NCBI GenBank assembly: GCA_001798135.1
Contig: MGRJ01000015.1
Span: forward strand, 124,001-188,000
DNA length: 64,000 nt
DNA from: Deltaproteobacteria bacterium RIFCSPHIGHO2_02_FULL_40_28
GTDB taxonomy: Bacteria; UBA10199; 2-12-FULL-40-28
Direction: 5' to 3'
Below the pieces are notes generated by a model, which made no database searches, had not been told where the DNA came from, and saw only the letters and a list, made by a program, of their open reading frames with translations. Numbering within the stretch: the first letter of the stretch is position 1; the number at the start of each line of letters is the position of its first letter. Shown here piece by piece: positions 25,402 through 29,959 of the stretch. The translations under genes and the position numbers were made by a program.

Positions 25402-25694
25402 TCTCATCCTTTCCATCATTGTCCATCATTAACCCCCTCAAAACTAACGCATTGCGTTATTCTCTAGACAAAAGCACATAGCTTGTCTAGAGATAAGTTG
25501 TTATCGGGGTTCACCAAGAAAAGGTTGTCAAAATAGTTATATTAATAATTAAGGTGACAAAACTCTCAATATACATCCCTTAATTATTTATAAGTATTTG
25601 TTATTATTGTGTTTATTAATTAAAAGAAAACGCAACCTTTTTTAAAAAAGGGCGATAAGAAAGCACTTTTTTAGGAATATAAAGTGAGGTTATT
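25402..25694. other. 293-bp divergent intergenic region with two palindromes
   Basis: Lies between rlpA (-) and the large unknown gene (+). It holds a perfect 11-bp inverted repeat, TCTCTAGACAA at 25461-25471 and TTGTCTAGAGA at 25483-25493 with an 11-base loop, and a perfect 16-bp palindrome CCTTTTTTAAAAAAGG at 25636-25651, about 45 bases before the downstream start. The rest is strongly A+T rich. I cannot assign a promoter with confidence. The first repeat has the size of a dimeric-regulator site or of a hairpin without a U tract. Confidence 0.6.
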
Positions 25695-28600
25695 TTGGCT
25701 AATGCATTAGAACCAACAGCATTATTTCGAACAGTCATGGATCGTTATCGGCAATTAATAATAGGCCCCTTGCCAAGAGATACAGAACTAACAGCAGAAC
25801 CTCAAACCATAGAAAATTGGGAGAAACTACGAACAGCCTTCTATGCTCTTGCTCACGATCCCTCTTCTAATACCAGACCTCACTTCATGGAGTTTTCACG
25901 CTGGTTTGGCACAGCAGAACATTACGAGGGAATTAAACCAGTCCAAGATCGTGGCATTCGAATTGTTACCCCCATGGAATTTCCAATCATGGTTCCTGAA
26001 GGCATTGATCCCTTGCGCTTTGGTGCTCTTTACTTGGCCTATGCCATGGTCGATGAGCCTCCTCCCATTGAAGTGGGTCTGGCCAAGTATTTTGCTGTTG
26101 ATCCAGAACTACGAACCCATCAAACAGATACAATGTTGGTTGTTGAACAAGTTTTGGGAGCTATTTTAGCCTTAGATCCAGACAAAAACTACCTTGCTCT
26201 TTTTCCACTCTTGAATAATCCCATTTTAATGGAATTTTTAGAAACAGCCTTTCTGGATCTCAATGATCTGATGGTAGAACACGATTCACTTCCTAGCATT
26301 CAATACAATACAATCATTAATCGTCTCTGGCATGGACATGATAGTGAGGTAAGGGTGTATCGCGTTCATATTAACATGACTTCTTTAAACGAACTTGATC
26401 CCACCAATACTCAAGGTTCACTTTACTTAGCTGCTGTTAAAAAATGGCTCCAAATCAAGTTTGGAGAAAGTAATATCGTGCAAAACCCAGAACGAACAAG
26501 TTTTCAATTTATTGGAGTCGATCCCATACAAGTAAAAACAGCCGTTGCCAATTTTGAACTAGAAATAAAAGCCATGATGCGAAAAATGCCTGGTGCCAAG
26601 CGTGATTTAATTGCTGGATTTAAACCTCAAATTTGGGTTGCTGAGAGGTCTATCACAAAAGATAGCATTCTTTACTATGGCATAGCAACACCCGATGATC
26701 TGGAGTTATTTAGATCGATTCTTGAAAATAGTCAGCAAGACTTATTAGCACTCTATGATGCAGATACAATCACTTTTGAAACATTTCGCGTCAGATTGAG
26801 GGATGCCCCATTTTCTTTCCAAGCATTGATGATGATAGGGGAGGATGACACTCACCCTTCCCGTCTTTCTCTTTTAGAAGGTTTAATAACCAATGCTCTG
26901 GTTAATTTCAATGTAGAGCTTGCTTCTGAAACTACTTTTTTTGAGAAAAATTATCCTGGTCAAGAAAACCTGTATACCAAAAAAATGTTAGATCAACACC
27001 TTGCATCAAATCCGGATCAAGTAAGGGTATGGGAGAGTTATGTTCGAAGCCGGAGAGGCTATGTGGGTGTAGGACAGTACAATCCCGTTTTAGAAAATCC
27101 AGGATTACAAAATTCTGCTTTATTTCCTAACGCCTTTCATCATTACTTGGAACAATATGGTTTAGCACACCCAACAGAAACAGATAATCCTCAGTTAAAT
27201 CGCCTCCTGAATATGCTCCCCAGGTTAAAACATGTTGCCGGGCTTGTTTCTCACACAAGACCAGGCAGCCGTGGAGCCCTCCAAAGAATGGGCGAAGCAC
27301 TACACACCTTTACCTCAAGTGTAACTGACGAGAACATCCGCAGGAATTTAACTGCTCTCCAAACTGTAACAAGGGAATTAAGAGATGCCTTTAGAACTGT
27401 ATATGGGCATGCTGTTACAAGCCCTCGTTATACTTGGAATATGAAACACTATAAAACTGCATCCATCAGAAGAGGAGATCAAGAATACCACGTTAATGCC
27501 AATTTATTTGTACAAGAAGTAGCTGCTGATAGGCATAGAACCCTGGCAGTGGTTGAGCTTGATTCTTTTAAGGCTTATAATGCAACACATTTAAGTAATA
27601 GCCCTGTTGATCCAGACATTAATGGCATTCAAGATAAAATTTATGAAACAGCTGCAACTCACAATCTTCCCCATCCCCAAGTTGATCCTACAGCAGGAGA
27701 TCATTTTAGTTTTGCCTTTACAACGGATGCTTATGTAACTTCTCCTCAATTTGCTCAGCAAGTTCAAGAAGAAGTAAAAACTCATTTTGCTGATAAACCC
27801 TTTCAGGATTATCACAAGGTAACCATGCAACTTCATACCTTTGATATTCCTGATGCAACGCAGAGAAACTGGCTTCAAAATGAAAACAATTTGGAACACT
27901 TAAGAACAACCCTCAATCTTTCTGCACGTCCTGTTTTTGTCAATACTCACGCAAATGAAGTTGTTTTGGCATTTCCTCAAGAGCACATGGATGGCACAAG
28001 CCTTTCACAAGAACAGGTTGGAGAAGCCCTGATATCAGCAGACATCACATTAATGAGTACTCAGCTTAAAACAGAAATTCAAATTTTACGCCTGCCTATT
28101 TGGCGTCCCAGCACCACTACAGATACCGATGTAGATCCAAACGATCTTGTTTTTTCAAATACAGCTCCGGCAAGTTTTGAACCCTTTCAAAGAACTTTAA
28201 CTGTAAGCATGGTGGTAGATAGCATTCGCCCACGTGCAGAATTTCGTACCGCCGGAGAATGGAGAAACCATGTTGAGGAAGTACAGCACCAACTTGACCA
28301 CAGATTAGCGGGACTTAAACAAGAATCATGGCCCTTTAAAGGAGGTTTAGAGATAGCTTATAGACATGGTTTAACTGGCAGCACCAGGAGGTGTGTATTT
28401 TATGGACCAGTGCCAATACCAAGTACCAGTCCACATGTTTCTCGTCCTGTTTCTCACACAACAGACGCAAGTACAATATACACAGGTGAACAGCCACTCG
28501 ATGACATACCAAAAGACATGTTGGATACCCCATGGATTGGAGAAGTAAGCGCCAATGATTTAATCACTCCATCAAGTCAGTATGAGTTTGTAAACGATCG

Positions 28601-29138
28601 TGATGGAACAGTACGAGCGGTAGTACCAGAAAACAATACTTTGCATTTTGGTGCCACCCTTGACCTTCTAGCAGGTGGAAGGGCCACCACAGCAGATCAA
28701 GCCCAGATTGCTGCTTTTAATAGAAATCAATGGGAATTTTACTTGGGAGCCATGAAAACATGGCGGGCCGAACTTGCACTCACACCAGACACAGAAAAAA
28801 TCTTGGATCAGTTAGCCACAGGAGAAAGAACTCCCGATGAAATTTTAGATATGGATAATCCAGAAGAGGATTTTTTAGAACATGTAGCTGATAATGAACG
28901 TGATGTGATGGCGTCCCAACTGCAAGAAATTCATGACACGATGAATGATCTTGATTATCAAGCCTTGCTTGTCATTGCTAGAATTGAAATGGCACAACCT
29001 GAAGGGTTCAATCTTATCGACCTATATGAAAGGCAATACCAACCTGCTAATAATGCAGATATTCTTCCTTATAGACCCAGATTGCCTGCAAACACAGCTC
29101 AACGTACTTTAACCGTTGAAACTCTTGTTAAAGCCTAA
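25695..29138 (+). CDS. Large protein of unknown function with two degenerate GGDEF-like segments
   Basis: 1147 residues, no signal peptide and no membrane segment, so probably cytoplasmic. I recognise no family for the whole. Residues about 600-800 look like a degenerate GGDEF (nucleotidyl-cyclase-fold) domain: RTLAVVELDSFKAYNATH (615-632) resembles the first strand and DxDxFKxxND helix, TAGDHFSFAF (666-675) sits where GGDEF is expected, and GEALISADITLMSTQLKTE (776-794) resembles the closing helix. Residues about 203-275 (YNTIINR, VYRVHINMTSLNELD, ERTSFQF) look like a second copy that has lost its catalytic residues. QRTLTV occurs at 832-837 and again at 1136-1141. The TTG start has GAGG five bases upstream (25686-25689). 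Domain calls are inference from pattern, without a profile search. Confidence 0.85.
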   Translation: MANALEPTALFRTVMDRYRQLIIGPLPRDTELTAEPQTIENWEKLRTAFYALAHDPSSNTRPHFMEFSRWFGTAEHYEGIKPVQDRGIRIVTPMEFPIMVPEGIDPLRFGALYLAYAMVDEPPPIEVGLAKYFAVDPELRTHQTDTMLVVEQVLGAILALDPDKNYLALFPLLNNPILMEFLETAFLDLNDLMVEHDSLPSIQYNTIINRLWHGHDSEVRVYRVHINMTSLNELDPTNTQGSLYLAAVKKWLQIKFGESNIVQNPERTSFQFIGVDPIQVKTAVANFELEIKAMMRKMPGAKRDLIAGFKPQIWVAERSITKDSILYYGIATPDDLELFRSILENSQQDLLALYDADTITFETFRVRLRDAPFSFQALMMIGEDDTHPSRLSLLEGLITNALVNFNVELASETTFFEKNYPGQENLYTKKMLDQHLASNPDQVRVWESYVRSRRGYVGVGQYNPVLENPGLQNSALFPNAFHHYLEQYGLAHPTETDNPQLNRLLNMLPRLKHVAGLVSHTRPGSRGALQRMGEALHTFTSSVTDENIRRNLTALQTVTRELRDAFRTVYGHAVTSPRYTWNMKHYKTASIRRGDQEYHVNANLFVQEVAADRHRTLAVVELDSFKAYNATHLSNSPVDPDINGIQDKIYETAATHNLPHPQVDPTAGDHFSFAFTTDAYVTSPQFAQQVQEEVKTHFADKPFQDYHKVTMQLHTFDIPDATQRNWLQNENNLEHLRTTLNLSARPVFVNTHANEVVLAFPQEHMDGTSLSQEQVGEALISADITLMSTQLKTEIQILRLPIWRPSTTTDTDVDPNDLVFSNTAPASFEPFQRTLTVSMVVDSIRPRAEFRTAGEWRNHVEEVQHQLDHRLAGLKQESWPFKGGLEIAYRHGLTGSTRRCVFYGPVPIPSTSPHVSRPVSHTTDASTIYTGEQPLDDIPKDMLDTPWIGEVSANDLITPSSQYEFVNDRDGTVRAVVPENNTLHFGATLDLLAGGRATTADQAQIAAFNRNQWEFYLGAMKTWRAELALTPDTEKILDQLATGERTPDEILDMDNPEEDFLEHVADNERDVMASQLQEIHDTMNDLDYQALLVIARIEMAQPEGFNLIDLYERQYQPANNADILPYRPRLPANTAQRTLTVETLVKA

Positions 29139-29185
29139 CTTGACAGCTTCCCTTCTACGAATTAAGCCTTAGGGCAGCAGGTTTC

Positions 29186-29252
29186 GTCATCCCTGCGAAG
29201 GCAGGGATCCATCTTTAAGATTAAGATGGATTCCCGCTTTCGCGGGAATGAC
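29186..29252. repeat. Imperfect palindromic repeat of the CATCCCTGCGAA/TTCCCGC type
   Basis: Two 30-base arms (29186-29215 and 29223-29252) around a 7-base loop; 25 of 30 positions match when one arm is reverse-complemented. The arms begin with GTCATCCCTGCGAAGGCAGG and end with ATCCATCTT. A related single arm lies at 59217-59246 (26 of 30 identical to the left arm). Repeats of this consensus (GTCATTCCCGCGAAAGCGGG) are scattered in many proteobacterial genomes. Here it separates the large unknown gene from the Lon-domain gene and could form a strong mRNA hairpin. Confidence 0.9.
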
Positions 29253-29260
29253 AGAGGAGT

Positions 29261-29959
29261 ATGATTGATAAATTTCTCAAAAAATTAGGAAAAAAACCAG
29301 AAACCCCTTTGGAAGAAGTTTGTGTTTTTCCTCTTCCCAACACAGTTCTTTTTCCAGGAACAGTACTTCCCCTGCACATTTTTGAAGATCGTTACAAACT
29401 GATGACCGAAGACTTAATTAATTCTAAAATTAATCTCGCCATGAGCTTTGCAACCAAGTCAAACCAGGAGGGGAATTTTAAGCCCAGTCTTATTTGTGGG
29501 GCAGGAAGCGTGGGTTTGCTTCAAGATTTTCCAGATGGAAGAAAAGACATTATTGTTCAGGGACAAAAACGACTTAAAATTGTAAAATACATTCAAACCG
29601 AACCCTACTTAAAAGCATTAGCCCAAGCCATTCCAGATGAACCTTTTAGCTCACCAAATGAAGAAAAAGCATATCATCAAAAAATTTCCAACCTGGCTAG
29701 ACGTTGGGTTTTTTTAAATCCTGAATTTAATGATGAATACATTCGCTATATTGATCTTTTTTTAACTCCCCATTCCTTGGCTGACTTTATTGGTTTTTAT
29801 TTTTTACCCACCACGATAGAAAAACAAAAACTTTTAGAAACCATCTCTAGAAAAGACAGAGTAAACCATGTGATGAATTTTCTTTATGAAAAAATTGCTC
29901 AACTAGAAATTGCTCATCAGAGACACTCCGTTGATTTTAAGCCCAAAATTCTTCATTAG
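29261..29959 (+). CDS. Lon N-terminal (LON substrate-binding) domain protein
   Basis: 232 residues with a stand-alone LON substrate-binding domain: VFPLPNTVLFPGTVLPLHIFEDRY, shown here in parts as VFPLPNTVLFPG and LPLHIFEDRY, then GAGSVGLLQDFPDGRKDIIVQG and a helical second half. It has no ATPase or protease domain. Such proteins are widespread but of uncertain function. The ATG at 29261 follows GAGGAG very closely (effective spacing short), directly after the palindromic repeat. mqnE begins two bases after its stop, so the two are likely co-transcribed. Confidence 0.88.
   Translation: MIDKFLKKLGKKPETPLEEVCVFPLPNTVLFPGTVLPLHIFEDRYKLMTEDLINSKINLAMSFATKSNQEGNFKPSLICGAGSVGLLQDFPDGRKDIIVQGQKRLKIVKYIQTEPYLKALAQAIPDEPFSSPNEEKAYHQKISNLARRWVFLNPEFNDEYIRYIDLFLTPHSLADFIGFYFLPTTIEKQKLLETISRKDRVNHVMNFLYEKIAQLEIAHQRHSVDFKPKILH

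Follow-up and report, generated by a model that had tools for sequence, protein, structure and literature searches.

In the stretch of DNA analysed here (the window, 64,000 nucleotides), the open reading frame at 25695-29138 on the plus strand is a real gene that encodes a 1147-residue protein, starts at TTG and is single-copy in its 2.16-Mb genome. A probable ribosome-binding site, GTGAGG (25684..25689), suggested by its spacing, ends 5 nt upstream of the TTG. The protein lacks membrane domains. All of its features lie on the same strand: a degenerate GGDEF-type palm, domain 1 (residues ~200-345, 26292..26729); a second GGDEF-type palm, domain 2 (residues ~615-879, 27537..28331; hhalign P 1e-5 to 2e-7); and a C-terminal tail (residues 901-1147, 28395..29135) that has no counterpart in the closest relatives by alignment. 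Between this gene and the next lies a strong inverted repeat (29180-29262, RNA fold -46.9 kcal/mol, z -7.5), whose arm occurs as one copy in the window and which could represent either a dispersed repeat or a terminator. The surrounding genes in the window are housekeeping genes, with no cas genes among them.

Relatives of the protein occur in 16 of the 46 genomes of its phylum and are 17-36% identical to it where aligned. This count was reached stepwise: a single-sequence search yielded nine genomes, including its own, a nine-row model yielded 11, and G041 and G035 (loci L148 and L146) and then G004, G013 and G015 (L159, L158 and L157) were added later. Alignment models found no relative in ~340 genomes of other phyla, and a genome-contig scan returned three relatives, two in records titled Deltaproteobacteria and one in a record titled Nitrospira, each of which had already been found within the phylum. 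A mobile or viral origin of the gene was rejected on zero matches in the viral contigs, plasmids and phages searched, and one further match (G016:C2, E 0.05) does not look like a relative on inspection. The earlier note had recognised no family for this protein, and we agree: searches of the single protein against Pfam, NCBIfam, PHROG, PADLOC and PDB sequences, and of an HMM of nine relatives against the PDB, gave only noise. The family is undescribed and so far seen only within one uncultured bacterial phylum.

Members differ in size and in their motifs. Compact relatives (L020, L021) have 775-783 residues, and a sister subfamily (L157-L159) carries an intact GGDE (GGDEI/GGDEV). Two tandem copies of the latter subfamily are found in G013 (L158:3-3002 and L158:3668-7501), with long hydrophobic Gly-rich C-terminal parts; by look, similar stretches are present in L014 (N-terminus) and L042 (C-terminus). 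In G014, the family gene is split across two overlapping frames (L018:7307-7876 and L018:4428-7430) and is open in G039; the split is a frameshift or an assembly error. The genome of the window also encodes a 1543-residue protein (L149:4468-9096, G000:C20) that weakly matches both class III cyclases and AAA and contains TPR-like repeats; long proteins resembling it, also matching class III, are present in G002:C99 and G007:C135.

Across the loci, only near relatives have a neighbouring gene in common, so that no operon argument can be made and, since no neighbour is conserved, none points to a pathway. The common neighbours are nuo genes at L015 and L017, and the mraW/ftsI region with a CAAX-protease-like gene at L018 and L019. 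In these last two related genomes, the Rce1-like CAAX protease gene adjoins the family gene (L018:8006-8809, L019:7266-8102). In G042, the family gene has as its back-to-back neighbour a GGDEF/HD-GYP gene (L021:3695-5611, minus strand), whose own GGDEF motif is degenerate (FGDNAF).

Is the protein related to nucleotidyl cyclases? The motif strings on which the earlier note had built this proposal lie where it placed them (L617-H632, T666-F675 and E266-F272) and are conserved beyond chance: 8 of the 24 columns conserved at ≥90% fall within its segments (p = 0.02), an excess that is modest by itself, the case being carried by the profile match. When ten rows covering residues 590-850, cut by the coordinates of that note, were compared by hhalign with a profile of 31 GGDEF domains, the match had P 7e-5 and a score of 36.8, against 13.2 ± 2.2 for column-shuffled alignments, none of 150 scoring as high. 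Removing an insertion that is absent in short relatives gave P 1.1e-5 (probability 82), and 14 rows gave P 1.9e-7 (probability 94), the score being 46 where shuffled alignments averaged 12 and reached at most 17; the motifs guided where the segments of these 14 rows were cut, a choice that the shuffling does not cover. The match of the 14 rows to the Cas10 palm2 profile was weaker (P 2e-4), and the class III cyclase profile gave no match with either domain (P 0.09 for domain 2 and 0.33 for domain 1). None of the three profiles gave a signal with the N-terminal part of the protein or with its middle. Thus, the cyclase-type match stands well above shuffled noise and domain 2 is related to GGDEF. 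Identity as a Cas10 or as a class III cyclase was rejected by these profiles in favour of GGDEF; Pfam shows no Cas10 palm2 (PF22335) match in the protein's own genome and no class III cyclase (PF00211) match in the protein.

The alignment places several residues of domain 2 on the active-site positions of GGDEF: (i) E621 and D623 (E621-L-D623, 27555..27563) fall on the first and second Asp of D-x-D; (ii) D639 (27609..27611) falls on the nucleobase Asp; and (iii) AGDHF (A667-F671, 27693..27707) falls on GGEEF, with D669 aligned to the acid that binds the metal. In 14/14 members, E621, D639, G668 and D669 are unchanged. The 10 members of the close subfamily also have D623; L146 and the sister subfamily, for which the first-strand register is less certain, have Arg or Lys instead. 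The position following GD is variable (H, F, L, Q or A, and E in the sister subfamily), L146 reads RGDEY at this position, and the Asn of FKxxN shows no conservation among relatives. In an 11-row alignment, E621, D623, D639, G668 and D669 show little or no variation, and neither do N232, D235, G241 and T268 of domain 1. The two motifs lie 45-50 residues apart in domain 2, mostly 40-45 apart in domain 1 and 43 apart in PleD. In the Hypr enzyme GacA, the Asp of GGDEF holds Mg2+ and residue 348, equivalent to PleD D344 and to D639 here, reads the base (PMC6456294). Read from the alignments, domain 2 thus keeps what would be both metal-holding carboxylates of GGDEF enzymes (E621 and D669) and the nucleobase-facing D639.

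Structure models, computed with AF2 from alignments of four rows, agree with the sequence result; we regard this evidence as moderate and as no proof alone. A 920-residue model was poor (pLDDT 54, pTM 0.37), and because of this we infer the packing of the two domains, which is not modelled reliably. Among its top 50 Foldseek matches were adenylyl cyclases 8 and 9, soluble guanylate cyclase, GTP cyclohydrolase III, a Cas10 complex, ImcA and Thg1, interspersed with transporters of the AcrB type, the porter domains of which share the ferredoxin-like pattern. The model of domain 2 (578-895) was fair (pLDDT 74, pTM 0.62) and had GTP cyclohydrolase III as its first match (E 5e-3); it aligned with the GGDEF domain of WspR over 95 columns (probability 0.99, rmsd 4.6 Å) and with a phage GGDEF over 94 columns (3.6 Å, probability 0.87). 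No match of this model was below E 1e-3, TM-scores were low and unrelated ferredoxin-like proteins were mixed in. Both domains were modelled with a common strand-helix-helix-strand-strand-helix-strand order, and fair confidence was reached for the domain-2 model only (domain 1 pLDDT mostly 57-82).

One detail proposed earlier for domain 2, its end, is wrong by the models. The helix at 776-794 (with SAD), which had been taken to close the fold, sits in an inserted subdomain (residues ~718-805, 27846..28109) that is missing from the 775- and 783-residue relatives; the cyclase fold ends instead with a strand, TLTVSMV, near 833-843 and a helix at 853-878. By eye, this strand seems to resemble the VTVSIGV strand of GGDEF. 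The helix and strand order of the inserted subdomain is itself that of a ferredoxin-like fold, and it may be a third, nested palm-like unit.

Could domain 2 be a ferredoxin-like fold unrelated to GGDEF, with motifs similar by chance? Such convergence would fit the Foldseek lists, in which cyclases are mixed with other ferredoxin-like folds, and the Pfam scans, which gave no match above noise in 17 members and no PF00990 match at E ≤ 10 for the window protein, nor any for its relatives. Against it stand the distance of the profile score from its shuffled controls, the silence of the other parts of the protein and the existence of relatives with GGDE, and we consider convergence very improbable.

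Domain 1 departs from GGDEF in a fixed way. Its modelled elements are a strand (219-227), helices (229-234 and 239-256), a hairpin (261-263/269-273), helices (277-297) and a strand (312-320). Thr stands in for the GGDEF catalytic acid in 16/16 members (T268, 26496..26498); N232 (26388..26390) is likewise invariant (16/16), and almost every member has Asn or Asp at the counterpart of the first Asp. Where GGDEF proteins read YGGDEF, L146 reads YGNTKM, and the window protein has ERTSF. The claim that no acidic residue is left in this segment holds for the catalytic positions and fails for the segment as a whole, in which D235 and E266 are conserved. Against the GGDEF profile, 11 rows gave P 0.04, with 2/150 shuffles as good, and 16 rows gave P 9e-4, with 0/60 as good, in an alignment that sets the hairpin out of register. 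The kinship of domain 1, weak by profile, is better supported by its motifs tabulated across the members. Compared directly, the two domains gave P 0.17 and later 0.03, which is not convincing; an internal duplication is plausible. The tandem of GGDEF-type domains proposed from the first reading is supported, the profile match of domain 1 being weak on its own, and so is the proposed kinship with the palm fold of cyclases and Cas10. Because the degeneracy is fixed, with Thr at the acid position in every member, it suggests that domain 1 has a retained function and is not in decay.

Domain order is constant in every member with both domains, and the gap between them is 321-345 residues in eight members and 395-429 in six. 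Conserved residues in this linker (L409, E417, V457, R510 and G516) indicate that the unit amounts to more than a pair of palms strung together.

This conservation bears on what the domains do. The earlier note had read them as two inactive domains or one weakly active domain, and the window protein does lack an intact GGDEF, as expected if both were dead scaffolds with residues conserved for folding only. However, the kept residues are a ligand-binding set and not core positions alone, and the close subfamily retains E, D, D and GD though identity drops to 17-36%. With E621, D639 and D669 unchanged in all members, intact GGDE in some relatives and a fixed Thr in domain 1, the claim of two inactive domains is not upheld and the scaffold reading is unlikely.

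At the other extreme, the two domains could pair as an ordinary diguanylate cyclase, as the GGDEF kinship and the back-to-back GGDEF/HD-GYP neighbour at L021 might suggest. The GG[DE]EF signature is found in neither domain of the window protein, AGDHF and ERTSF taking its place, and GGDE occurs only in the sister subfamily; carboxylates at the metal-binding D-x-D and GGD positions are present in domain 2 only, domain 1 lacking both. The I-site for c-di-GMP, RxxD, lies five residues before GGDEF and is common, not obligatory; it is absent from 14/14 and 16/16 members and present in 31/31 control GGDEFs. Since neither the fourth GGDEF residue nor the Asn of FKxxN is conserved, ordinary diguanylate cyclase chemistry is unlikely as well. 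On the missing signature and the I-site, absent in all members, we rejected this identity, which we find barely credible.

What, then, does the protein do? GGDEF enzymes function as pairs of identical domains. We favour, with middling confidence, a large soluble protein in which two GGDEF-type palms are fused as an internal pseudo-dimer, one of them binding metal and nucleotide and the other acting as a non-metal partner. In domain 2, E621, D669 and D639 would bind a divalent metal together with a purine nucleotide that is probably a triphosphate. Domain 1, its acid replaced by an invariant Thr, would have given up metal binding and would provide the second half of the site, like the non-metal half in mammalian adenylyl cyclases or Cas10. 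The likeliest output would be a product of nucleotidyl transfer that is not c-di-GMP, and switching under nucleotide control is a close alternative. The analysis establishes the family, its tandem order, the GGDEF kinship of domain 2, the conserved residues and the lack of an I-site; nucleotide and metal binding, the packing of the domains and catalysis are what we infer. Most likely, the protein works like a paired-palm enzyme or sensor.

Alternatively, the protein could be a nucleotide sensor without catalysis, in which GTP or some other nucleotide, bound with metal by domain 2, would trigger a signal to the helical linker and to the N- and C-terminal parts, domain 1 being structural. The fourth GGDEF residue drifts freely while the binding residues stay, as a sensor would allow, and there is a precedent in FimX, whose degenerate GGDEF (GDSIF) senses GTP (PMC8846402). 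Yet GGDE is kept in the sister subfamily, both metal carboxylates are present in all members, which is more than a pure ligand site needs, and the fixed Thr/Asn pattern of domain 1 is left unexplained. We hold the sensor to be a possibility worth taking seriously, short of our preferred reading of a pseudo-dimer.

That pseudo-dimer could be carried further, to a new type of second-messenger or nucleotidyl-transfer enzyme: a metal-site GGDEF palm and a Thr-marked pseudo-palm joined as a permanent heterodimer in one chain, arisen from GGDEF stock independently of Cas10 and of mammalian adenylyl cyclases, and limited to a single uncultured phylum. We offer this as a speculative and rather doubtful extension. 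If true, the family could make or sense a novel nucleotide signal; at present its genes are left hypothetical, because none of the profile libraries searched (Pfam, NCBIfam, PHROGs, PADLOC) covers them.

How does the protein compare with known systems? Domain 2 has the fold order of GGDEF (PF00990; PleD, WspR, GacA), with the same register of D-x-D, nucleobase Asp and GGD, and matches its profile, but the window protein has His as the fourth acid, no I-site, a ~90-residue insertion and a constant degenerate partner domain. FimX-type domains share a degenerate motif that could bind nucleotide; unlike FimX, the window family has two palms, another motif and no EAL domain. GTP cyclohydrolase III (MJ0145), the best Foldseek match of the domain-2 model, differs in its low TM-score and in having no sequence match to the nine-relative HMM. 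Cas10 of type III CRISPR likewise has two palms (Palm1/Palm2) in one chain and its GGD-type motif only in the second (PMC7854544); in contrast, neither an HD domain nor surrounding cas genes were found for the window protein. Mammalian membrane adenylyl cyclases, the top Foldseek matches of the whole model, also have two cyclase-type domains per chain (C1/C2), between which the catalytic residues are divided (PMC9552081), whereas the window protein has no class III sequence signal and no membrane domains. A fused GGDEF pair in which one metal site was lost in a fixed way would, if our reading is true, be the GGDEF counterpart of adenylyl cyclase C1/C2 and of the Cas10 palms.
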